From a virus, in IMG/VR virus record IMGVR_UViG_3300005912_000001, positions 1-40,245 of that record: a stretch of 40,245 nt of DNA; one strand, given 5' to 3'. Made by a program: the position numbers and the translations under genes. Positions 3,529 to 40,245 of the stretch are shown piece by piece. The notes under the pieces were generated by a model, which did no database searches, was not told the DNA's origin, and saw nothing but the letters and a program-made list of their open reading frames with translations. Within the stretch, counting starts at the first letter, position 1; each line of letters begins with the position of its first letter.

Positions 3529-3544
3529 TGTTTCCCGGGAAACA
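3529..3544. promoter_or_regulatory. parS/Noc-site-like palindrome 1 (TGTTTCCCGGGAAACA)
   Basis: This 16-bp sequence is a perfect palindrome inside a 26-bp perfect palindrome (3524-3549). It matches the bacterial parS consensus TGTTTCACGTGAAACA at 14 of 16 positions. Its core TTTCCCGGGAAA equals the core of the Bacillus Noc binding site. The phage encodes a ParB-family protein at 33182, the likely ligand. Without a following U-run it is a poor intrinsic terminator. Confidence 0.7.
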
Positions 3545-3554
3545 TTCAGGGAGC

Positions 3555-3570
3555 TGTTCCGCGCGGAACA
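3555..3570. promoter_or_regulatory. parS-like palindrome 2 (TGTTCCGCGCGGAACA)
   Basis: This perfect 16-bp palindrome lies within a 20-bp one (3553-3572), 26 bp centre to centre from palindrome 1. The identical 16-mer recurs at 5649 and 29919 in unrelated coding contexts. It has the same T-G-T-T-N-C arms and central C-G as parS. It ends eight bases before the putative late promoter motif at 3579. Confidence 0.75.
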
Positions 3571-3578
3571 GCCCCAGC

Positions 3579-3600
3579 CGTTGATAGCGCGCCCTTTTGT
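3579..3600 (+). promoter_or_regulatory. Putative late promoter/activator motif, copy A
   Basis: CGTTGATAGC, then six bases, then TTTTGT. The same CGTTGATAGC-N6-TTTGT arrangement recurs at 6513 and 23401, each time at the head of a late gene block. Here the next start codon begins two bases after the motif. It does not fit a sigma-70 promoter well, so a phage-directed promoter or activator site is inferred. Confidence 0.55.
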
Positions 3601-3602
3601 GA

Positions 3603-3950
3603 ATGGCAGCGTCTTGGCATCTAATAAAAGCGTTCATCAGGGAAGCCACTGAGGACGAAGACCTAAACCCGGTTGCGGAGATCTCTACCGCATACGCGAA
3701 ACTGCGCGCGATTCAGCGGGGGCACTTCGAAACCGCGACGATAAACAATGACGGTCTTCAGCAGATCTCTTCACAGGTCAAGGATGTCTCCTTTTCGTTC
3801 GCCGTCCCCTCTGGACTGGGTGCAGCCGAGATCATCGCCACGGCAGAGCAGGCGCTCGAAATGATCGAAGGGAAAACCGTCGCCCAAGCGCGCGCCTTTC
3901 TGGTTCGGCGCAAACGGACGCAACTCGATATGCGGACCTATCGACTATGA
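3603..3950 (+). CDS. Small head protein in the gpW position
   Basis: This 115-residue protein lies between terminase/nuclease and portal, where lambda has gpW (head-tail joining). Its C-terminal half, with I-I-A-T-A-E-Q-A-L and A-R-A-F-L-V-R-R-K-R-T-Q-L, could fit a joiner, but lambda gpW is only 68 residues and the similarity is not strong enough to assign the family by eye. The ATG follows a putative late promoter motif by two bases, and the stop overlaps the portal start (ATGA). There is no Shine-Dalgarno sequence. Confidence 0.6.
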   Translation: MAASWHLIKAFIREATEDEDLNPVAEISTAYAKLRAIQRGHFETATINNDGLQQISSQVKDVSFSFAVPSGLGAAEIIATAEQALEMIEGKTVAQARAFLVRRKRTQLDMRTYRL

Positions 3951-5497: not shown

Positions 5498-6502
5498 ATG
5501 TCCTATCCTCGAATCGTAGACGCAATTTTCAACTCCCCATGGGCGATCCATCGTCCGTTCTTCGGGACCATGTTTCCGCTGATGCAATCGCGAATCTTCA
5601 GCGACTCCGCGCAACTGGAATCCTTCACCGCAAACGGAGCCGGACCCATGTTCCGCGCGGAACAGTCCGCCGCATCAGGGAAAGGCAAGGGAGGAAACTT
5701 CAGCGCGAGCCGAATCACCAAGCGCACGGATGGTCGATTGATCGACCAAAGCGCGCGGATTCACTCGGAAGCGCTCCAGCGTTGCGGAGGCGATGCCGGA
5801 ACATATCACACAATCGTCCGAGAGGAGGAAGCCGCGCTCCCCCCCGGTCAGATCTTGCACGTCTTCGGCTCCGGAGTCCTAGGAAAGCACCTCTCCTCCA
5901 TGGATGAAATGTGCGCAGGAGGGCTTTCGGTTGATCGTATTCAGTCCGCGATCACAGCAGCAGAAGAAGACGACAAGGTTTCCGGAGTGATGCTTCATCT
6001 CGATACTCCGGGCGGGATTTGTTACGGAATGCCGGAGACGTTCGCGATGGTCAAAAAGCTCCGCGAAACGAAAACCGTTGCCGCGTTCTGCGATTCACTC
6101 ACCGCGTCGGCCGGTCAATGGTGTATCGCCGCAAGCGATGTCGTTTACGTCACGCCATCCGCTGATCTTGGATCTATCGGAGTCTACTCCGCTTTCACCG
6201 ATTACACCGAATGGTGCAAGAAAAACGGGATCACCGTTGAGGTGATCGCAGACGGAGTTCACAAGGGCGCAGGCTACCCAGGAACCGCACTCACTGAGGA
6301 GCAACGCACGAAGATCAAAGCGGATGTTTTGGAGTGCAGTCGTCAGTTCAAAGACGACATCCGCTCAGCGCGTGAAGGGATCACAGACGAGACGATGCAA
6401 GGTCAATGTTTCACCGGGAAATCAGCCGTTGAAGCGAAGCTAGCCGACGCCGTCGTGATCAATCTCAACGAAGCGCTCGCAGACTTAGCGAAAGCGATTT
6501 GA
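5498..6502 (+). CDS. Head maturation protease, S49 family (lambda gpC-like)
   Basis: This 334-residue serine protease of the SppA/S49 clan would cleave scaffold and portal during prohead maturation. The catalytic Ser lies in S-L-T-A-S-A-G-Q-W and the general-base Lys in A-D-G-V-H-K-G-A-G. Oligomerisation motifs D-T-P-G-G and A-D-L-G-S-I-G-V are present. It stops near the normal end of the protease domain, so unlike lambda gpC it lacks an internal C-terminal scaffold; the following gene probably supplies that. A perfect parS-like palindrome lies inside the gene at 5649. No Shine-Dalgarno sequence precedes the ATG. Confidence 0.92.
   Translation: MSYPRIVDAIFNSPWAIHRPFFGTMFPLMQSRIFSDSAQLESFTANGAGPMFRAEQSAASGKGKGGNFSASRITKRTDGRLIDQSARIHSEALQRCGGDAGTYHTIVREEEAALPPGQILHVFGSGVLGKHLSSMDEMCAGGLSVDRIQSAITAAEEDDKVSGVMLHLDTPGGICYGMPETFAMVKKLRETKTVAAFCDSLTASAGQWCIAASDVVYVTPSADLGSIGVYSAFTDYTEWCKKNGITVEVIADGVHKGAGYPGTALTEEQRTKIKADVLECSRQFKDDIRSAREGITDETMQGQCFTGKSAVEAKLADAVVINLNEALADLAKAI
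5649..5664. promoter_or_regulatory. parS-like palindrome 3 (TGTTCCGCGCGGAACA), inside protease gene
   Basis: The 16-mer is identical to those at 3555 and 29919. Here it encodes M-F-R-A-E-Q, whereas at 29919 it is read in another frame, so conservation acts on DNA rather than protein. ParB sites inside coding sequence are common in bacteria. Confidence 0.7.
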
Positions 6503-6512
6503 CGACATCCTT

Positions 6513-6535
6513 CGTTGATAGCCGCCCCTTTGTAT
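6513..6535 (+). promoter_or_regulatory. Putative late promoter/activator motif, copy B
   Basis: CGTTGATAGC, six bases, then TTTGTAT. It lies 10 bases after the protease stop and 44 bases before the next start codon. TTGATA at 6515 and TATCAA at 6533 also form an inverted repeat in this copy. It would allow separate, high expression of scaffold and capsid genes. Confidence 0.55.
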
Positions 6536-6579: not shown

Positions 6580-7137
6580 ATGTTCGGAGACAAACTCGCC
6601 CTCGCAAACGCCACAATCGGAACTCTGATCGGAGTTCTAGGAACCGCTGGAGTTGAGCTCGATGCAGCCAATATGCTCAGCGCCGAGGAGATCACCGCCA
6701 AATTAGGGGCAGCGAAAAAGGCCAGCATCGAAGCCGCCGTGAAACTCGCCATTGCTCCCGCCGTCGCCGAAGCCATCACCGGACCTAAAGCATCGATTGC
6801 CGCTTTTGAGGCTGGTCTGAACGCATCCGGAATCACGGGGCTGGAATTCGTCGCTGAAGACTTCACCGCACCGAAAGCCGAGGGCGCGCTCAACGGAGCG
6901 GCGACCAAAATCAAAACCGCTATCGAGACCCGCGTTGCGAAAGTCTCCGCCCGTCAGATCGCCGCCTCTGGTCATCCGGGATCGGTAGATGTCCCTGCCG
7001 GAGAGACAGACGACTCGAAAGCGCGCGAAGTCACTCCAGCAACGAAAGCCGAATTCGTGACCACGCTCAACGGGATCACCGATCCCTCCGAGCGCACGAC
7101 CTACTTCCGCGCTCACAATAAGAAATTCATCAAGTAA
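6580..7137 (+). CDS. Probable scaffolding protein
   Basis: This 185-residue protein is rich in alanine and predicted helical, and it lies between protease and major capsid protein, where scaffolds are usually encoded. It ends in the basic stretch R-A-H-N-K-K-F-I-K, like the capsid-binding C-termini of several phage scaffolds. A linker around residues 130-155 is rich in Asp, Ser and Pro. The S49 protease lacks the scaffold extension seen in lambda gpC, which supports this role. A head decoration protein is the main alternative. A putative late promoter motif lies just upstream, and there is no Shine-Dalgarno sequence. Confidence 0.55.
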   Translation: MFGDKLALANATIGTLIGVLGTAGVELDAANMLSAEEITAKLGAAKKASIEAAVKLAIAPAVAEAITGPKASIAAFEAGLNASGITGLEFVAEDFTAPKAEGALNGAATKIKTAIETRVAKVSARQIAASGHPGSVDVPAGETDDSKAREVTPATKAEFVTTLNGITDPSERTTYFRAHNKKFIK

Positions 7138-7195: not shown

Positions 7196-8245
7196 ATGCG
7201 TCACGCTCTATTTCTTTTCGCCTTCCTTGTCGCGTTCATCGCGCGCTCCGAACGCTTCGCCGTCCTCATCACCAAAGCAGTGATCACCGTCGCGTTTTCT
7301 GCTACGCAAAGCCTCGCTCCGATGTTTCGCGTCCCGGTCGCCCTCTACGTAGTCAACTCGATTGATGTCGGACTTAAAAAGGAGCATCTCCAAGACGTGT
7401 TCCTTGAGGCATTCAAAGGAGAGATCCTCGCCCTCACTGCATTCGCAACAGACTTCTCAAGCGCAGTCCTGGACAAAGAAGGCGACAAGGTGAAGGTGGG
7501 CTACATCCCGCTTGCCGCAGCCGCTCAGGACTTCAAGGGCTCCTACACTACTCAAGCCACTGACTGGGAAGTTAAGGAGGTGTCGGTTGATCGTCACAAG
7601 TTCGTCTCGTGGGGTCTCTCCGATACGGATATTTTCACGCAAGGGATCGTCAACCTCGAAAGCCAAGCGCGCATGAAAGCGCACACGCTCGCAGCCGCCG
7701 TCGTTGCGGATGTCCTGAGCTGCGTCACCGCCGCCAACTTTGGAGCCGCGCTCCACACCGGACTTGCCGGAGCTTTCGACCTGGATGACATCGCCGATAT
7801 GCGCACCGGCGTCGTAAAAGCCAAATGGCCCAAGGTCGGGCGCTCCATGATCCTCGGAGCCGATTACTACGGAGCCGTTGTCAAAGACAACGCGATGCAA
7901 GACGCATCCGCAGCCGGCGGCACAGAAACCCGCACCTCTGGAGTCCTTCCGAGCCTCTACACCTTCGGGATGATCGAGTCTGAGGAGATCCCCGCCAACG
8001 CGGAGAATCTGATCGGACTCGCAACCCTGCCCTCCGCAATCGCGGTCGCGATGCGCTACCTCGCGCCGCGTCGCCCTGAGAAGTATATCGAAGCGCGCGC
8101 GATTACCGATCCGCTGAGTAAAATCACCATCGGTTTCCGCCATGATTACGACACTCACACGGGCGTCGAAACCCACGTCTACGAGTGCAACTACGGTTTC
8201 GACCCGCTAGAGGCGGCCGCCCTCAAGCGCATGGTCTCCGCGTAA
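7196..8245 (+). CDS. Major capsid protein
   Basis: This protein of about 349 residues follows protease and scaffold, the expected place for the HK97-fold shell protein. A capsid-like core runs from about residue 50 to the end: a long N-arm (G-L-K-K-E-H-L-Q-D-V-F), a spine-helix region with many alanines, and a C-terminal domain with R-Y-L-A-P-R-R-P-E. Oddly, the first 42 residues are very hydrophobic, beginning M-R-H-A-L-F-L-F-A-F-L-V. The true start may be the ATG at 7322 (M-F-R-V-P-V), or the extension may be cleaved by the head protease. No Shine-Dalgarno sequence supports either start. Confidence 0.82.
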   Translation: MRHALFLFAFLVAFIARSERFAVLITKAVITVAFSATQSLAPMFRVPVALYVVNSIDVGLKKEHLQDVFLEAFKGEILALTAFATDFSSAVLDKEGDKVKVGYIPLAAAAQDFKGSYTTQATDWEVKEVSVDRHKFVSWGLSDTDIFTQGIVNLESQARMKAHTLAAAVVADVLSCVTAANFGAALHTGLAGAFDLDDIADMRTGVVKAKWPKVGRSMILGADYYGAVVKDNAMQDASAAGGTETRTSGVLPSLYTFGMIESEEIPANAENLIGLATLPSAIAVAMRYLAPRRPEKYIEARAITDPLSKITIGFRHDYDTHTGVETHVYECNYGFDPLEAAALKRMVSA

Positions 8246-23400: not shown

Positions 23401-23423
23401 CGTTGATAGCCGTGCATTTGTAT
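23401..23423 (+). promoter_or_regulatory. Putative late promoter/activator motif, copy C
   Basis: CGTTGATAGC, six bases, then TTTGTAT. The last A-T belongs to the start codon of the next gene at 23422, so any transcript beginning here is leaderless or starts inside the motif. The motif separates the tail block from the probable lysis block. Confidence 0.55.
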
Positions 23424-23991
23424 GAAGATCCGTCTCTTTATCCTCCTCGCGCTCTCTTTCGCCTTCTTCGGATGCCAGACGCAAAGCGTCAAAGTCCCCA
23501 AGCTCCCAGAATGGAAACAATCCACCGATTCCCAGATCTACGGAATCGGAGACATCTACGAAGGACTCGCCCAATACGCCCCCGGAGCACACCTAGTCGC
23601 GCCAGCCGACGCCTACTTTACAAAAATCCCTCACGCATTCGCCGAAGAACTCACCCGCTGGACATGGGAATTTCTCACCGCGACCGGGATCAAATACACC
23701 GCCGAAAGTTTCGACTGTGATGACTTCGCCGAAGCCTTCGCCCTAGCGATCAACGTATCAGCCGCGCGCGCCGGAGTAGAAGCGCAACCCCTTGGATTCC
23801 GAATCTTCGTCGATCAAACTCACGAATTCGGAGGAGTCGGAGCCGGAGGGAGCACCGCGAAACACGCGCTGAACGTCGTCTACACCGATCGAGGCCCCTA
23901 CGTCATCGAACCTCAACCCAGTCGCGCCCCGCGCATGAAACCGCTCTCCGAATACCGAAACCTAATCTGGGAAGTCCGGATAGGAGGCTGA
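23422..23991 (+). CDS. Lipoprotein with Cys-His (papain/transglutaminase-like) motif
   Basis: This 189-residue protein starts with a lipoprotein signal (M-K-I-R-L-F-I-L-L-A-L-S-F-A-F-F-G-C) with lipid attachment at C18. The mature part has E-S-F-D-C-D-D-F-A-E-A-F (C99) and T-A-K-H-A-L-N-V-V (H148), then Y-V-I-E-P-Q. That Cys...His...Glu order fits the papain/transglutaminase superfamily, so it may be a cysteine endopeptidase or amidase acting on the cell wall. It heads a block of envelope proteins after the tail genes, so a lytic enzyme tethered to a membrane is plausible. The -3 residue of the lipobox (Phe) is unusual. Confidence 0.62.
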   Translation: MKIRLFILLALSFAFFGCQTQSVKVPKLPEWKQSTDSQIYGIGDIYEGLAQYAPGAHLVAPADAYFTKIPHAFAEELTRWTWEFLTATGIKYTAESFDCDDFAEAFALAINVSAARAGVEAQPLGFRIFVDQTHEFGGVGAGGSTAKHALNVVYTDRGPYVIEPQPSRAPRMKPLSEYRNLIWEVRIGG

Positions 23992-29615: not shown

Positions 29616-29951
29616 ATGAGCCGCCCCGCTGAATGGATCTCATTTGCTGAGTTGGAGGCGCGCTCGCCTTGGACAAGCGCGAGCACGCTCAGACGCATGA
29701 TCAAGGGGAAGCGGATTTCGTATCGCCAGACGCGCAAGGGGGCTCCGATGTCGTTTAATTGGATCACGGTCGAGGCTGAGTTGCGCAACCTGGACACGGT
29801 GAGCCGGGTGCGTGAGATCGCGCCGTTCGCATACGATCAGGGAGATGTTGCACGAATTGAGGCGAAGCTGGACGCGATTCTTCAAGCGCTCGTTCACAAT
29901 GTCGGGATTCCTGCGGATTGTTCCGCGCGGAACATGAGGAGGACGGGTTGA
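29616..29951 (+). CDS. Excisionase/helix-turn-helix-like protein
   Basis: This 111-residue protein starts with I-S-F-A-E-L-E-A-R-S-P-W-T-S-A-S-T-L-R-R-M-I-K-G, like the helix-turn-helix of MerR/Xis-type DNA-binding proteins, followed by a wing-like strand (M-S-F-N-W-I-T-V). A coiled-coil helix (D-V-A-R-I-E-A-K-L-D-A-I-L-Q-A) closes it. It could be the excisionase or an early regulator. The 3' end contains a perfect parS-like palindrome (29919) and the Shine-Dalgarno sequence of the next gene. Confidence 0.5.
   Translation: MSRPAEWISFAELEARSPWTSASTLRRMIKGKRISYRQTRKGAPMSFNWITVEAELRNLDTVSRVREIAPFAYDQGDVARIEAKLDAILQALVHNVGIPADCSARNMRRTG
29919..29934. promoter_or_regulatory. parS-like palindrome 4 (TGTTCCGCGCGGAACA), early operon
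   Basis: The 16-mer is identical to those at 3555 and 5649, here read as D-C-S-A-R-N-M in the gene around it. It is the only copy in the early region and lies about 3.3 kb before the ParB-family gene in the same operon, so ParB could autoregulate its operon from here. Confidence 0.7.
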
Positions 29952-30546: not shown

Positions 30547-30773
30547 TCGCGACTATCGAGCATGGGCGGACTCGAATCCTCCCAGATATTGAGGCTCCCA
30601 GAGAGCTCCCCTCCCCTCGTGCTGCGTTGGTCGCACCTGCTAGGGATTACACTTTTGCGGAGGAGTCGGGTTGCGTCGTTGTCCACACGCAGACGGGGAC
30701 GTTTGTCGGTCGATTTTCATCCCGTGCGATTGCTGAGGGCTCACTGCGTTTTTTGAGAGGCAAAGTATCATGA
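30543..30773 (+). CDS. Small early protein of unknown function, 76 aa
   Basis: A short beta-rich protein with G-C-V-V-V-H-T-Q-T-G-T-F-V-G-R-F and A-I-A-E-G-S-L-R-F-L. No family is recognised. Four-base overlaps with both neighbours support a real gene. Confidence 0.5.
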   Translation: MIATIEHGRTRILPDIEAPRELPSPRAALVAPARDYTFAEESGCVVVHTQTGTFVGRFSSRAIAEGSLRFLRGKVS

Positions 30774-31192
30774 CTGAATTTATTTTTACGCTGAAATTCG
30801 GGATCCTTGTGGTCTTGATCATGGGGATAGCGATCCCGTTTGTGATTGCTGATGTATTAAGGAGTTGGGCGCTAGGGGCTCCGAAGCGGGAGGGCTTCGC
30901 GTCATGGATGGGATGCGAGCAACGGGGGCGCGTGATGGAGAACGGACAACCCTACGTGCCGGAGAGTTTGGTGTGTGCGAGCTGGGATCATGAGATCGGA
31001 ACGATGCTCAGGGTCACGAATCGAGAGAATGGGCTGAGCGTCCTTGCGCGGGTTTCTGATCGTGGTCCCGATAAAGCGCTCTATCGCGCTGGTCGGGTGA
31101 TCGAGTTGAGCGAGCGCGCCTTTGATGTGATCGCAGATCCGAGGGTTGGAGTTGTTGCCGTGTCGATCGCAGTCAAGGGGGACTCGTATTGA
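30770..31192 (+). CDS. Membrane-anchored RlpA-like (double-psi beta-barrel) protein
   Basis: This 140-residue protein has an N-terminal membrane segment (F-G-I-L-V-V-L-I-M-G-I-A-I-P-F-V-I-A) and a domain matching RlpA: A-S-W-M-G, then I-G-T-M-L-R-V-T-N, then V-S-D-R-G-P, then I-E-L-S-E-R-A-F. RlpA enzymes cut denuded glycan strands. The catalytic Asp of D-R-G-P is present, but the usual Ala-Ala-His is replaced by C-A-S-W, so activity is doubtful. It sits in the early operon, not the lysis block, which is odd for a wall protein. It overlaps both neighbours. Confidence 0.72.
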   Translation: MTEFIFTLKFGILVVLIMGIAIPFVIADVLRSWALGAPKREGFASWMGCEQRGRVMENGQPYVPESLVCASWDHEIGTMLRVTNRENGLSVLARVSDRGPDKALYRAGRVIELSERAFDVIADPRVGVVAVSIAVKGDSY

Positions 31193-33181: not shown

Positions 33182-35533
33182 ATGAATACACCAACGAAAC
33201 CGAAAAAAACGAAAACGGATCCAGCCTCATTCTCATGGGATGAAAAAGGAAATTGCGTTGAGGGAAATTGCATCACGATCCAAGCTGGGACGCATGGGTT
33301 CGTGTTGCTCTTTACCGCCCTCCGTCCTGATGGTGAGGGGTGGTCTTACGGGGCGATTGTTTCGGATGGAGCACCTGACCCTTTAATGAATCATCCCTGC
33401 ATGGCTCAGGGGCTTGCGGAAACGACGGAAGCGGAAGCGGTGGAGAGTGCTGCGTCTCTGGTCACGTTTAATCGTGATTTACCAAAGGAGCTGATTGATT
33501 GCGTTGATAATTACTTTAAGCCCGCCCTAGGTCTTGCGATCACTGAGCCGGTTTTGCCGGGGACTGCGAGCGAGTGGAGAGAGGATGGGGAGTGTCTCAC
33601 GCCGGAGATCATCAAGGTCGCGCTGAAGGGCGCTTTTGAGGTGGAAATCTATCTAGGGGTGACTGAAGCGGGTCACTGGTTTGCGGGTCAATACTGCCGG
33701 ATTGAGGAGGAGGAGGTTTCGACGTCTTGCACGCGTAACGGGGAGGCGTTTGCTGATCGTAAGTCTGCGTTTCGCTGGGTTCTCAATGCGGCGCTCGAAT
33801 TCTACACGGTGACGCGCAAACCGGTGAGGGGGCTCAAGGGTGCAACGACTGCGATCAGCGTATTGCTGGAGGCTTTGGATGAGGCTTGCGCGCCGGTTGT
33901 CGCGCCGGTCAATGCGCGCGCGCCGGTTTATGTGACGAGTTACGCCGCAACTGCGGTCGCAAAGATCCAGCGCAATCCCGAAAACAATCGGAAGCATTTC
34001 GACGCGGTGGCGCTCCGGGAGCTTGCGGACTCGATTCGGGCGGAGGGGCTTCATCAGCCGATCTTGATCCGGCGTTTACTGGATGGGGAGATTCCTACGG
34101 GGGAGCTTTCTCTAGGGGATGCGAGCGCGCCGGAGTTTGAGCTGATCGCCGGAGAGAGGCGCTGGAGGGCGATGGCTATCGCCGGACGTGATACAATCGA
34201 CGCGAAAATCTACGAGGGGCTTGTGCGCTCGAAGATGAAAGCTATCGCACTTATCGAGAATCTCCAGCGCGAGGGGCTTAACTGCATGGAGGAGGCTGAG
34301 GGCTACACGGATTTGATGAAGGATGAGGGGCTTTCAACGGAGGCTTGCGCGGACCGGGTGGGGAAAAATCGGAGCACGGTCGCAAAGTTTGTGAGGTTGC
34401 TCCAGTTGCCGGATTTGGTGCGAGATCAGTTGAGAGAGGGCATTTTCTCCCCTAGCCATGGGCACGCGCTCGCGCGGTTTGCGGAGTGGCCGGATCATCT
34501 GCGGGTGATCGCAGAGGAGGCGCTGGAGGCTCGCGCATCGTCGAAAGTATTAGAGAAGGGGGTTCCGTTCGTCTCTGCGTTGATCAAAGCGGAGCTTGCG
34601 GTGGTGATCGATCAGTTCGCCGCCGTGAAGTTGCCGCCGAAGTTCAAGGGGTTGCCTCAGTATATCTCCCGAGGGGATGGGGATTGGGTGTGCTTCGATC
34701 CTGAGCACTGGAGAACCTACCTTGAGGAGAAAGCCGAAAAACAACGGCTCAAAGAGGAGGCTGATGCTAAGGAAAAACAGCTAGCCGAAGCGGACCTAGC
34801 GAAGAAGAAACGCAAACAGCTCCGACTTGCAGACCTGGACCGCGATTCCTACCGCCGATTTGAGGGAGATAGCGCGGATTTGCTCGCGCTGGTGCCTGAG
34901 AGCTCGAAGCGGGACGCGAAGGACTGGGACAAATCGGATACGGTGATCGTCACCGATGTTGAGCTAGCTGAGAGGCTCAAAAAGGCGCTACAGCGTGCCA
35001 CGAAAAAGAACCGCAAGGGGATCGCAATCGAGATCGAGGGGCACGTTTTGAAGGGGTTGAAGAAGCTGAAGACAGTCGGGTCGAGAGAGATCGCCTGGCT
35101 GGTGTTTATGCGGACGGATCTGAGAGAACAACGGATCACGATGAGCCTCACAGCGGAGGCGGTAGATCGGAGCGCGGAGGCGTTCGGATCGCCGTCGGCG
35201 TTGCCTGACAGTGTGCTAGAGATCGGTGATCGCAATGTTTCGGGCGAGGCATTCGCCGCGCATGAACAGAAGCGGCTCCATGAACTCAATACGTGTTCAG
35301 GGGCTGAGCTCGTGAGAGCGTTGATCGCTGAGCGGTTGCCGAGTGCGTTGGTCGATATGATCGAGGCCGGGCCGGACTCACTGGGTGCTCGATATCTGCG
35401 ATGGTGGCTCAATACGGATACGCTTTGGCTCCTAGAGGAATCCGAGGAGGGGCGCGCCGAACTGATCGCAGAGGTGAAGGATTCGGGCTGGTATGAGAGA
35501 GCGATAGCCGGGGAAGAGGAGGAGGAAGGATGA
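33182..35533 (+). CDS. ParB-family protein with N- and C-terminal extensions
   Basis: This 783-residue protein has a full ParB core. N-P-E-N-N-R-K-H-F starts the CTPase domain near residue 264, G-E-R-R-W-R-A lies at about 324-330, E-N-L-Q-R-E-G-L-N at about 359, and a helix-turn-helix (C-A-D-R-V-G-K-N-R-S-T-V-A-K-F) near 385-405. Family knowledge: G-E-R-R and E-N-L-Q-R bind CTP and let ParB close as a sliding clamp after loading at parS. Residues 1-255 and 450-783 are extensions not seen in chromosomal ParB; the latter contains a coiled coil (about 520-560). No ParA lies in the genome. Four parS-like palindromes are likely sites. Start ATG 33182 has no Shine-Dalgarno sequence. Confidence 0.88.
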   Translation: MNTPTKPKKTKTDPASFSWDEKGNCVEGNCITIQAGTHGFVLLFTALRPDGEGWSYGAIVSDGAPDPLMNHPCMAQGLAETTEAEAVESAASLVTFNRDLPKELIDCVDNYFKPALGLAITEPVLPGTASEWREDGECLTPEIIKVALKGAFEVEIYLGVTEAGHWFAGQYCRIEEEEVSTSCTRNGEAFADRKSAFRWVLNAALEFYTVTRKPVRGLKGATTAISVLLEALDEACAPVVAPVNARAPVYVTSYAATAVAKIQRNPENNRKHFDAVALRELADSIRAEGLHQPILIRRLLDGEIPTGELSLGDASAPEFELIAGERRWRAMAIAGRDTIDAKIYEGLVRSKMKAIALIENLQREGLNCMEEAEGYTDLMKDEGLSTEACADRVGKNRSTVAKFVRLLQLPDLVRDQLREGIFSPSHGHALARFAEWPDHLRVIAEEALEARASSKVLEKGVPFVSALIKAELAVVIDQFAAVKLPPKFKGLPQYISRGDGDWVCFDPEHWRTYLEEKAEKQRLKEEADAKEKQLAEADLAKKKRKQLRLADLDRDSYRRFEGDSADLLALVPESSKRDAKDWDKSDTVIVTDVELAERLKKALQRATKKNRKGIAIEIEGHVLKGLKKLKTVGSREIAWLVFMRTDLREQRITMSLTAEAVDRSAEAFGSPSALPDSVLEIGDRNVSGEAFAAHEQKRLHELNTCSGAELVRALIAERLPSALVDMIEAGPDSLGARYLRWWLNTDTLWLLEESEEGRAELIAEVKDSGWYERAIAGEEEEEG

Positions 35534-36350: not shown

Positions 36351-36426
36351 AAAAATTTGACTACTCCATCTAGTAGCTATTCCGCCTCGCAACCACAACC
36401 TGTTGTGCCCTCCCCTCTTTTTGCCC

Positions 36427-38514
36427 GTGCCTAAAAAACAATCGTCCGAGCCGTCCGAGGCTCCTGAAACTCCACCTGTGAAGGTTGACCATGTGAAGGA
36501 GATTTACTCCGCGCTTTCTGGTCAACCTGTCCTACTTCGCGTCCGGGAGGGAAAGAAGGGGCCAGTCGATAGGGGCTGGGATCAAACAACATGGGAGGAC
36601 ACGCTCGACGAGGGATATCGCGAGGATCTCGGGCGGGGAAATATCGGTGTATTGCTGGGTCGTCGGAGTGCATTGAGGGTCGCGGGGGAGGTGTATCACC
36701 TTTGCTCGATCGATATCGATGACGACGCGGACGTTGAGCCGTTCCTTGAGCTCAATCCGAGGCTCCGTCAGACGTTGATGACTAAGGGCAAGCGAGGGGG
36801 AAATCTCTGGGTCTGGGCATTGCGCGATTCGTATCCGGCTATGCACTACCTGAAGAAAACCGGAGAAAACGGAGAGCCGGATAGAGATCAACCGTGGGGC
36901 GAGTGGAGAACTGACGGGGTGAACGAAGAAGGAGAGGAACGCGCTTTCCAAACCGTGATCTACGGGACGCATCCGGACGGGATGCGCTATCAGCGAATAT
37001 CGAAACACAAGAGTCCGATTCGGATGGATTTCGAAGAAATCGAGTGGCCTGAGGAGTTGTTTCTCCCGTGGGCAAAATCGGACTGGGATCAGTTGGTTGA
37101 TGATCACGGAGAGCCGTGGACTAAGAGCAAAAAGGGCGCTTTCACGCTCAATCCGCCGTTTTGGGTGGGGCTCTATGCGACTCAGCGCACGATTTTGTAT
37201 GAGCCTGAAGAGGGTAGATTCTACGACTACCAGGACGATAGGGGGCTCTGGGTGAACGAGTCGGAGGACTCCGTCCGCTGGAAGTATTCGCTCGATATGA
37301 AAAAAGCGAGCGATGACGCAAAGGAACCGGCGTTGTTGGGTAAGCGCACGAATACGTTTTTGCAGGGGTTGACGAGTCTGCTGAAGGGGTGCGTCGAAAA
37401 GCGCGAGGCGTTCAAGAGAGAGCCAGGTCTCGTTCATCTGCAAAACGGGATGCTCGATCTACGCAACGACCCTCCCACCCTGAGCTCGTTCGAACCCCGC
37501 TTTCATTCAAGAAATCAAATCCCGGTCGATCTCGTGGAGGGCGCTGACTGCCCGGTGTTCCGTAAGGAACTACTTGAGGCGGCTTTGCCGCCCGGTGACG
37601 TTTCTCTGATTCAGCGTTGGGCGGGTCAGTTATTACTAGGGGTGAATCTGACTCAAAAAATCATGTTGCTCGTAGGTAAGGAGGGGCGGGGTAAATCGAC
37701 GTTAATGAACGTGATTAAGTCCATGATCGGAATGAGTAACATCGCCGGACTTCGAACGGAGCACCTACACCAACGTTTCGAGCTATTCAACTACATCGGG
37801 AAAACGTTCCTAATCGGTGCCGACGTGCCGGGTAAATTCTTGATGACGGAGGGCGCTCATGTGCTCAAGGCGCTAGTAGGAAAGGACGTGTTGACCGCAG
37901 AGAAGAAGAACGGAGACAGCGTCAACATTATCGGAGATTTCAATATCGGACTTACGTCAAACAGCCGTCTCAAGGTGAAGCTAGACGGGGACGCGGGGGC
38001 ATACGGACGCAGGTTGATGATCATCAATTACGAGCGTCCAAAGCCCGAACGCCCCGACCCCCATTTTGAGGAACGACTGATTGCGTCCGAGGCGTCCGGG
38101 ATCCTGAACTGGATGATTGAGGGGGCCATGATATTGCTGGAGGAAATCAGGACGACGGGCTCGATCATCATGAATGCCGAGCAAAAGGATCGGGTTGAGT
38201 CGTTGCTTGCTGAGTCGGATTCGTTACGTCAGTTCGTCACGAAAGTCGTCACGATATCAGAGGGTGACGATGTCACATCGCAGGAATTGTCCATTGCCTA
38301 TGTCCAGTATTGCGAAGCGCGAGGATGGAACCCGCTCCCAACGAAACGCGTCGAGTCAGCCATGCCGGACGCGATGACAGAGATCCATCGGGTAGCGAAA
38401 CGAAACGACATCAAGCGCGATGACGGGCATCACGCCCAGAAAGCGCAAAGAGGATATCGAGGGATCAAGATATTGGTCACTGAAGATCCAGAGGAGGGCT
38501 TCAGCGATGTCTAG
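36427..38514 (+). CDS. Replication protein: PrimPol primase plus D5/SF3 helicase
   Basis: This 695-residue protein (from GTG 36427) joins two replication activities. The N-terminal half has the primase-polymerase acidic site S-I-D-I-D-D-D (about 93-99), R-G-G-N-L-W-V-W and the Q-T-V-I-Y-G-T-H-P-D-G-M motif. The C-terminal half is a D5-type SF3 helicase with Walker A G-K-E-G-R-G-K-S-T at about 417 and S-N-S-R-L-K-V as sensor region. It would prime and unwind at the phage origin. A TTG at 36403 would give eight more residues; GTG giving M-P-K-K looks better. It contains a paired 9-bp repeat at its start and a degenerate parS-like site at 37556. Confidence 0.88.
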   Translation: MPKKQSSEPSEAPETPPVKVDHVKEIYSALSGQPVLLRVREGKKGPVDRGWDQTTWEDTLDEGYREDLGRGNIGVLLGRRSALRVAGEVYHLCSIDIDDDADVEPFLELNPRLRQTLMTKGKRGGNLWVWALRDSYPAMHYLKKTGENGEPDRDQPWGEWRTDGVNEEGEERAFQTVIYGTHPDGMRYQRISKHKSPIRMDFEEIEWPEELFLPWAKSDWDQLVDDHGEPWTKSKKGAFTLNPPFWVGLYATQRTILYEPEEGRFYDYQDDRGLWVNESEDSVRWKYSLDMKKASDDAKEPALLGKRTNTFLQGLTSLLKGCVEKREAFKREPGLVHLQNGMLDLRNDPPTLSSFEPRFHSRNQIPVDLVEGADCPVFRKELLEAALPPGDVSLIQRWAGQLLLGVNLTQKIMLLVGKEGRGKSTLMNVIKSMIGMSNIAGLRTEHLHQRFELFNYIGKTFLIGADVPGKFLMTEGAHVLKALVGKDVLTAEKKNGDSVNIIGDFNIGLTSNSRLKVKLDGDAGAYGRRLMIINYERPKPERPDPHFEERLIASEASGILNWMIEGAMILLEEIRTTGSIIMNAEQKDRVESLLAESDSLRQFVTKVVTISEGDDVTSQELSIAYVQYCEARGWNPLPTKRVESAMPDAMTEIHRVAKRNDIKRDDGHHAQKAQRGYRGIKILVTEDPEEGFSDV
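36442..36459 (-). repeat. Paired 9-bp repeat at the primase gene start
   Basis: TCGTCCGAG and CCGTCCGAG in tandem, the - strand form of TCGGACGGT. It lies six codons into the primase-helicase gene and may be an autoregulatory or origin-linked binding site. Confidence 0.5.
37556..37571. promoter_or_regulatory. Degenerate parS-like site
   Basis: TGTTCCGTAAGGAACT keeps both arms of the TGTTCC-N4-GGAACA family except the last base and changes the four-base centre. It lies inside the primase-helicase gene. It may be a weak site or chance. Confidence 0.3.
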
Positions 38515-39255: not shown

Positions 39256-39669
39256 ATGGAACAATCTCACCAAGAATCTCCTGAATACAGATCCGCAGTC
39301 GAACGAGCCAGCGTTGAGGAATTCAAGAACCCCTTTGACGTGATCGATGAACAGACAAGAGGGGATCTTATTTGCCAGCTTGCGGAAGTCCTGACTCCGA
39401 TCCTCCAGTTCATCGCCAAAGGTCGCCTTACTCGGACGATGGCGATGAGATCATGGGTTTGGTTATACGAGACCCGGTCAGACTTGATCGCCGGGGAGAC
39501 GATTGACCAATGCGCCAAGCGCGCCGGAGTCGCACCTCAACGCGTTCACACCTTGATCAAAGAGTTCAGGAACGTCGTCCCAGGTTTCCGATCATCCCGC
39601 CGCAAGTCCGATCGGACCGTTGCCTCTATGAAGAAAACCGCAGCGCGAAAAAGGAGGGGCGAAAAATGA
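39256..39669 (+). CDS. Helix-turn-helix protein, possible late regulator
   Basis: This 137-residue protein has a C-terminal helix-turn-helix (I-D-Q-C-A-K-R-A-G-V-A-P-Q-R-V-H-T-L-I-K) followed by a very basic tail (R-K-S-D-R-T-V and K-K-T-A-A-R-K-R-R). The N-terminal half is helical (L-I-C-Q-L-A-E-V-L-T-P-I-L-Q-F). It lies between replication and packaging genes, where many phages encode their late activator, so it is a candidate for recognising the CGTTGATAGC motifs; this is inference. There is no Shine-Dalgarno sequence. Confidence 0.55.
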   Translation: MEQSHQESPEYRSAVERASVEEFKNPFDVIDEQTRGDLICQLAEVLTPILQFIAKGRLTRTMAMRSWVWLYETRSDLIAGETIDQCAKRAGVAPQRVHTLIKEFRNVVPGFRSSRRKSDRTVASMKKTAARKRRGEK

Positions 39670-39785: not shown

Positions 39786-40245
39786 CAAAACCAGAAAACG
39801 CGCGCGAAACCTCCGACGAATTCGACGGACTACCGACTCCAGACCTCACGGGATTTCAAGATCCGGACTTTGATGACATTCACGGACTCGATTTTGAGGC
39901 AGTCGTCAATGGACTCGATAAAACTGAGGAGGAAGTGACTCCGATCGGGAAGCCGCGCAAACTGAAAGCCGGAGAAGCGACCGGACTCGGAGGGCGAGCC
40001 GTCTCGATGACGCGACGAACGAAGCGAAAAATCTTCTATGATCTCGCGACTTCGAAACGCGCGGTCAGTGCGATTGGAAAACTTCCGGATCCCGAGGAAT
40101 CTTTTCATTGCCTGATGGGTGGAGACTATCACGGATTCGATCTCGTGATTGCGATCCACTCGCTAGCGGAAGCGCCGATTGATTTCCTTCACCTGACGAC
40201 GCTCGGATTCAATCGCCACAACATGACGCACCTGATCGGGATGCT
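39782..40245 (+). CDS. PLD-like protein, 5' part (continues at position 1)
   Basis: This is the N-terminal part of the 254-residue protein that continues as 1-411 after the circular join; bases 40136-40245 duplicate 1-110. The first 60 residues are acidic, with G-L-P-T-P-D-L-T-G-F. A basic stretch R-R-T-K-R-K-I-F follows near residue 78. The start overlaps the preceding small gene (ATGA), so it ends the early/replication chain and leads into terminase. Confidence 0.75.
   Translation, partial: MTKPENARETSDEFDGLPTPDLTGFQDPDFDDIHGLDFEAVVNGLDKTEEEVTPIGKPRKLKAGEATGLGGRAVSMTRRTKRKIFYDLATSKRAVSAIGKLPDPEESFHCLMGGDYHGFDLVIAIHSLAEAPIDFLHLTTLGFNRHNMTHLIGM
40136..40245. repeat. Terminal direct repeat, right copy
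   Basis: This segment is identical to bases 1-110 and marks the contig as circular or circularly permuted. The non-redundant length is 40,135 bp. Confidence 0.95.

Follow-up and report, generated by a model that had tools for sequence, protein, structure and literature searches.

A two-box motif at the heads of gene blocks in a temperate siphovirus related to Verrucomicrobiota phages: a candidate phage-specific promoter element

Three motif copies in a probably complete phage genome

The window, by which we mean the whole stretch of 40,245 nt analysed here, is the probably complete genome of a temperate siphovirus related to Verrucomicrobiota phages. Since it carries a direct terminal repeat of 110 bp (1-110 = 40136-40245), the record most likely represents a complete genome of ~40.1 kb (40135 bp) that was assembled circularly. 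Terminase, portal, protease, head, tail, integrase, primase and ParB genes are recognised, whereas known RNA families and tRNAs were not found in the window. Three of the four phage records with related portals infect Verrucomicrobiota and the fourth Sulfurimonas, and a prophage relative was located in a Verrucomicrobia MAG. The features relevant to the present study are the following.

3579-3600, plus strand: site copy 1 (P site), with box 1 CGTTGATAGC at 3579-3588 and box 2 TTTGT at 3596-3600; exact match, and at the same place in five relatives
3603-3950, plus strand: small gene ahead of the portal gene, first of block 1; in relatives, conservation begins at its first codon
3947-5470, plus strand: portal protein
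5498-6502, plus strand: head maturation protease
6513-6533, plus strand: site copy 2 (S site); exact match, and at the same place in five relatives
6580-7137, plus strand: putative scaffold gene, named from its position; first of block 2
7196-8245, plus strand: major head protein
23401-23421, plus strand: site copy 3, TTGATA-N13-ATG; exact match, and TTGACA-N13-ATG at the small lipoprotein genes of relatives
23422-23991, plus strand: gene with a lipoprotein signal (MKIRLFILLALSFAFFGC), first of block 3
36403-38514, plus strand: primase, an early gene shortly upstream of the candidate regulator
39256-39669, plus strand: helix-turn-helix (HTH) protein P0001, encoded between primase and terminase and a candidate for regulating the sites; homologue in G001, weak profile link

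The initial annotation had described a three-copy motif at 3579, 6513 and 23401, and an exact search verified it: CGTTGATAGC-N6/7-TTTGT occurs in three exact copies, all on the plus strand. The pattern CGTTGATAGCN{5,8}TTTGT matches at 3579-3600, 6513-6533 and 23401-23421 on the plus strand, nowhere on the minus strand, and not once in 100 dinucleotide shuffles of the window, and CGTTGATAGC without mismatch is confined to the three copies throughout the window. The extra T that had been noted in the copy at 3579 is real. All three copies lie in intergenic gaps, and their assignment to the heads of a portal and a scaffold/capsid block stands, whereas the label 'envelope/lysis' for the third block is unproven, as the product of 23422-23991 has a lipoprotein signal and no match in PHROG, be it to lysis or to other proteins. 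Two of the copies are indeed very near an ATG: copy 1 ends 2 nt before that of 3603-3950, in the arrangement TTGATA-N16-ATG, and copy 3 directly adjoins that of 23422-23991. Copy 2 has no adjacent start codon and lies 46 nt upstream of the ATG of the putative scaffold gene.

Conservation in close relatives and in a wider site family

Five relatives with portals 45-65% identical to that of the window (L124/G001, L141, L142=L143, L140 and L125) were compared at two homologous places, namely P, before the gene preceding the portal, and S, before the scaffold gene. The two-box motif is present at both places in the window and in each of the five relatives, and it is kept although the flanking sequence differs; the initial annotation had named a lack of conservation in relatives as grounds for abandoning its proposal, and the opposite was found in every close relative examined. 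The sequence common to P and S is CGTTGATAGC in the window, CGCCGTTGATAGCCG in L124, CGTTAAGTCC in L141, CCTTGATACGCGC in L143, AAAATCAGACCG in L140 and GTTTGATAGA in L125. Box 1 is thus identical between P and S inside one phage and mostly different from phage to phage, and the summed common length is highest for the true pairing among all 720 permutations. In the 3.2-Mb MAG that contains L140, AAATCAGACCG occurs exactly twice, at the P and the S site. That the box changes in concert in this way suggests that it is recognised by a factor specific to each phage.

In the relatives box 2 reads CTATAG, CTTTAAA, CTATAAA, CTTAAGT or CTAATAG. As such, the parts that had been described as constant are exact among the three copies of the window, but across relatives it is box 1, and at most sites the distance to the start codon, that stays constant and not TTTGT. 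In the six phages the P motif abuts or nearly abuts the ATG, whereas the S motif lies 37 to >100 nt from the start codon, with box 2 retained and no start codon found consistently at the usual spacing. A scan of viral contigs for the exact motif of the window returned 119 scattered matches, which, apart from a near-identical relative among them (L020), are apparently mostly due to chance.

Of 384 genomes of the class, 55 were matched by a portal profile, and 40 prophage loci were read for TTGAC[AT] located 13-15 nt before the ATG of open reading frames of at least 50 aa. On the portal strand of the 40 loci, the hexamer occurs 60, 57 and 20 times at 13, 14 and 15 nt, respectively (137 in total), compared to mostly 0-5 at other spacings, where a tail at 16-17 nt is the exception. 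The opposite strand has 0-3 per spacing, and at most 2 at each of the spacings from 13 to 15 nt. An open scan of all hexamers at all distances in the same set placed TTGACA at 13 and 14 nt on ranks 1 and 2. For the longer form DTTGACAC the counts are 106 on the phage strand and 5 on the opposite one, and the family consensus can be given as KTTGACAC, a C/G-rich stretch, GG[CT] and the start codon. This codon is ATG in 117 and GTG in 32 cases and never TTG or CTG; Shine-Dalgarno-like tetramers are found at 2-4% of the sites, as opposed to 21% of other genes and 10% inside genes. The gap before site-led genes is larger than before others (median 30 vs 5 nt), and the sites mark the heads of gene blocks and not all genes, being found before the small pre-portal gene, the scaffold gene, the small lipoprotein gene and further blocks, some of them before the terminase. 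As blocks upstream of the terminase are also preceded by sites in relatives, 'middle/late' describes the blocks better than the earlier label 'late'.

Compared to this family the window has TTGATA instead of TTGACA, with N13-ATG at copy 3 and N16-ATG at copy 1, and its portal and scaffold positions match. From these features, the window appears to carry a derived TTGATA variant of a TTGACA-N13-15-RTG site family. The nearest named phages, P8625 and Moulinsart, have no such sites on the coding strand in the parts examined, looser matches aside. In the literature on promoters, transcript starts and start-codon motifs of Verrucomicrobia and Akkermansia phages, of which subscription journals were mostly outside our reach, no earlier description was found. 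The signal is apparently both widespread among Verrucomicrobiota viruses and undescribed. A slight excess of 4-bp stems in the spacer (16 vs about 6) derives partly from related copies, and a spacer hairpin was not retained as a signal.

An HTH gene linked to the sites

In complete prophages the early operon comprises helicase, primase and, as its last gene, that of an HTH protein of 174-222 aa, the 3' end of which is overlapped by a site in several cases. In 20 loci the contig was found to carry this gene too, and each of them has at least two sites, while 6 of the 11 long loci without it have none or one (Fisher p = 6e-4, not corrected for phage relatedness). In two loci (L213 and L219) sites are present and the HTH gene was not found. 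Three further loci (L270, L271 and L272) represent the reverse case, with an HTH gene and no TTGAC[AT]-N13-15 site in the stretch examined; a different box may be in use here, or the loci may be fragments of contigs.

The same association is seen in an independent set of 80 viral contigs that were picked solely because they encode the HTH protein. Here, 113 sites lie on the strand of the HTH gene and 4 on the other; since near-duplicates confound a hexamer scan on these contigs, de-duplicated counts were used, which are 55 vs 4. With equal lengths of DNA inspected on either side of the HTH gene, 106 sites lie downstream of it and 5 upstream. No enrichment is seen in unrelated viral contigs that add up to a similar length, where 13 sites compare to 22 matches at control spacings. 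The architecture is present in 40 prophage loci and 80 viral contigs. The box variants are specific to individual phages, as permutation reached the observed value in 0 of 5000 cases for base -1 and in 5 of 5000 for base 6. In two prophages of one genome (L209 and L210), TTGACT is found almost throughout, and a divergent HTH homologue is encoded nearby.

The domain that reads the TTGACA of the -35 element is region 4 of sigma factors. In the predicted structure of the HTH protein (mean pLDDT 78; 85-94 in the HTH part), the structural neighbours are mostly chains of sigma domain 4, with middling Z scores of up to 6.6, which can mean a common fold only. Pfam Sigma70_r4 gives a weak match in 15 of 34 family members (best E 0.004), and structures of the repressor KorA are matched by the protein sequence as well. 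Sigma region 2 was not among the Pfam and PHROGs matches of the HTH proteins, although such lists do not exclude one. Site and protein agree, because region 4 is the part of sigma that reads TTGACA; neither match is proof.

In the window itself, P0001 occupies the place between primase and terminase and has a homologue in G001 that is about 50% identical. Against the regulator profile it scored as the best non-member of 750 proteins (E 0.11), and hhalign against the regulator family A5/A7 gave E 7e-5 at a probability of 63% and E 0.0036 at 9%, while a structure search with the poorly modelled P0001 was uninformative. Homology to the regulator family is only suggestive on these values, and P0001 is the leading candidate regulator of the window's sites, not an established member.

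A candidate phage-specific promoter and its alternatives

From the conservation of the sites, their fixed spacing, strand and position at block heads, the phage-specific variants and the linkage to the HTH gene, all of which can be read from the DNA, we infer transcript starts, protein binding and activation, and the role of P0001 in the window. In our view the motif is probably a phage-specific promoter element for middle and late gene blocks that is driven by the phage HTH protein, which lends support to the earlier idea of an undescribed late promoter or activator site. The early operon would provide a small HTH protein with a region 4-like HTH, which would bind box 1 (TTGATA in the window, TTGACA in most relatives) and, together with the host RNA polymerase, would start transcription about 13-16 bp past box 1, within box 2 or immediately behind it. 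In the window, P0001 would take this part. With the start codon at that point, as at copies 1 and 3, the mRNA would be leaderless or nearly so, whereas with a start codon further on, as at copy 2, a leader of about 45 nt would result; the scaffold block of the window's clade in general would have a leader. The fixed distance to ATG or GTG fits such nearly leaderless mRNAs. In mycobacteria, an ATG/GTG rule for leaderless mRNAs has been measured (PMC4633059); the present sites, which are those of Verrucomicrobiota phages, resemble these in having ATG or GTG, never TTG or CTG, at the presumed 5' end and no Shine-Dalgarno sequence.

Two known systems come near the proposed regulator. The Ltr/RinA proteins of Staphylococcus phages are late transcriptional regulators, needed for late transcription and acting at the promoter, and their gene closes the early cluster, ahead of the promoter region that they control (PMC13123087). 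The present HTH gene likewise closes the early operon and precedes almost all of the sites; in the window, that of the candidate P0001 follows primase and precedes terminase. Ltr acts at one promoter with direct repeats from -107 to -42 and a TATA box, from which one long transcript is made (PMC13123087), whereas the present family has many single sites by gene starts and no -10 element. A different precedent exists in phage T4, where the split sigma factor gp55/gp33 redirects the host RNA polymerase to late genes, at promoters that consist of a -10 element (TATAAATA) only. What we propose for the HTH protein is similar in that a phage-encoded, sigma-like part would redirect the host enzyme to late genes; it differs in that the present family shows an upstream box only and in that a second subunit was not identified.

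It is uncommon for a promoter to lack a -10 element altogether. One could speculate that the sites represent a new promoter class, in which a phage protein with a region 4-like HTH and no recognised region 2 uses a -35-like TTGACA about 14-20 bp before the transcript start, without a -10 element, to produce leaderless mRNAs from many blocks across Verrucomicrobiota phages; we regard the chances of this stronger proposition as slightly short of even. For a large phage group that has hardly been studied, the sites would provide a simple and testable code of regulation, with one early regulator, several sites per phage and readable start points, and gene blocks and true start codons in Verrucomicrobiota prophages would become predictable. 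If the -10-less, leaderless reading were true, bacterial RNA polymerase would be steered here in an unusual manner.

The main rival is a signal at the level of translation, namely that box 1 acts within the mRNA as a landing site for the ribosome or an RNA-binding protein, set at a constant distance from the start codon. Such a role has been proposed for the start-associated sequences (SAS/ESAS) of cluster K mycobacteriophages, which precede non-structural genes and have the consensus GGGATAGGAGCCC, its Shine-Dalgarno core lying 3-7 nt upstream of the start codon (PMC3203893). They are the closest described sequence element, being likewise short asymmetric repeats, mostly in one orientation and at a near-fixed distance before many phage start codons, and practically absent from the host (PMC3203893). 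The present sites do not belong to them, as the consensus differs and Shine-Dalgarno-like tetramers are as rare as stated above; TTGACA/TTGATA instead stands 13-16 nt before the start codon of structural blocks and is linked to an HTH gene. The near-constant 13-15 nt to ATG or GTG in the wider family, where a Shine-Dalgarno sequence is absent, would suit a translational role, and, as a counterpoint to the promoter interpretation, sites outside the window's clade hardly ever occur without a start codon attached, which would also be expected of a translation signal. However, sites head gene blocks and not every gene, and the S copy lies at least 37 nt from the scaffold start in all six clade phages, with box 2 kept and without a start codon that recurs at the usual spacing, which favours a signal read in the DNA. 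We consequently hold the translational explanation to be unlikely, if worth keeping in mind.

Alternatively, the HTH protein or a repressor could bind box 1 as an operator or stoperator-like site and silence the blocks. Asymmetric intergenic sites in one orientation and the resemblance of the HTH to KorA would agree with such a function, but the strict spacing to the start codon, the lack of a separate promoter signal upstream of the sites and the location of the HTH gene behind primase, within the early lytic operon, make it improbable.

An ordinary host promoter, or one used by a host alternative sigma factor, with TTGACA as a mere -35 box, seems quite improbable as well. TTGACA is the -35 consensus of sigma-70, and the HTH resembles region 4 in its fold and, weakly, in its sequence; still, the HTH protein has no recognised region 2, and the distance to the start codon is wrong, since a -35 box so placed would start the RNA inside the gene. 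The misfit to sigma-70 that had been claimed holds beyond the window, as the -10 hexamer is absent 16-18 nt after the box at the window's copies and no TATAAT-like enrichment is seen anywhere near 135 sites of the wider family. In 13 host genomes there is a modest excess at the site spacing over the control spacing; among the matches listed, however, prophages dominate, and host-wide use of the site was rejected. The phage-specific box variants likewise argue against a host factor. Sigma-54, flagellar sigma and T7-like promoters, judged from the site consensus only, would require a second element for which no match was found, and no single-subunit polymerase was recognised among the annotated proteins. 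That the motif is a functionless chance repeat or the remnant of a recent duplication, as its mere three copies in the window might suggest, has a negligible probability, since a chance repeat is ruled out by the shuffles, by the conservation of homologous sites amid differing surroundings and by the strand and spacing counts in the wider family.

Two further observations concern other parts of the genome. Perfect 16-bp palindromes that resemble parS/Noc sites (TGTTTCCCGGGAAACA once and TGTTCCGCGCGGAACA three times) are present at 3529-3544, 3555-3570, 5649-5664 and 29919-29934, the first two directly upstream of site copy 1, and palindromes of the TGTTYGCCGGCRAACA type occur at corresponding places in the relatives G001, L141 and L142. 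A ParB protein is encoded at 33182-35533, and the palindromes and ParB likely form a phage partition or ParB/Noc-like system. Lastly, a protein with a DPBB/RlpA-like lytic transglycosylase domain is encoded at 30770-31192, in the early region and far from the presumed lysis block.
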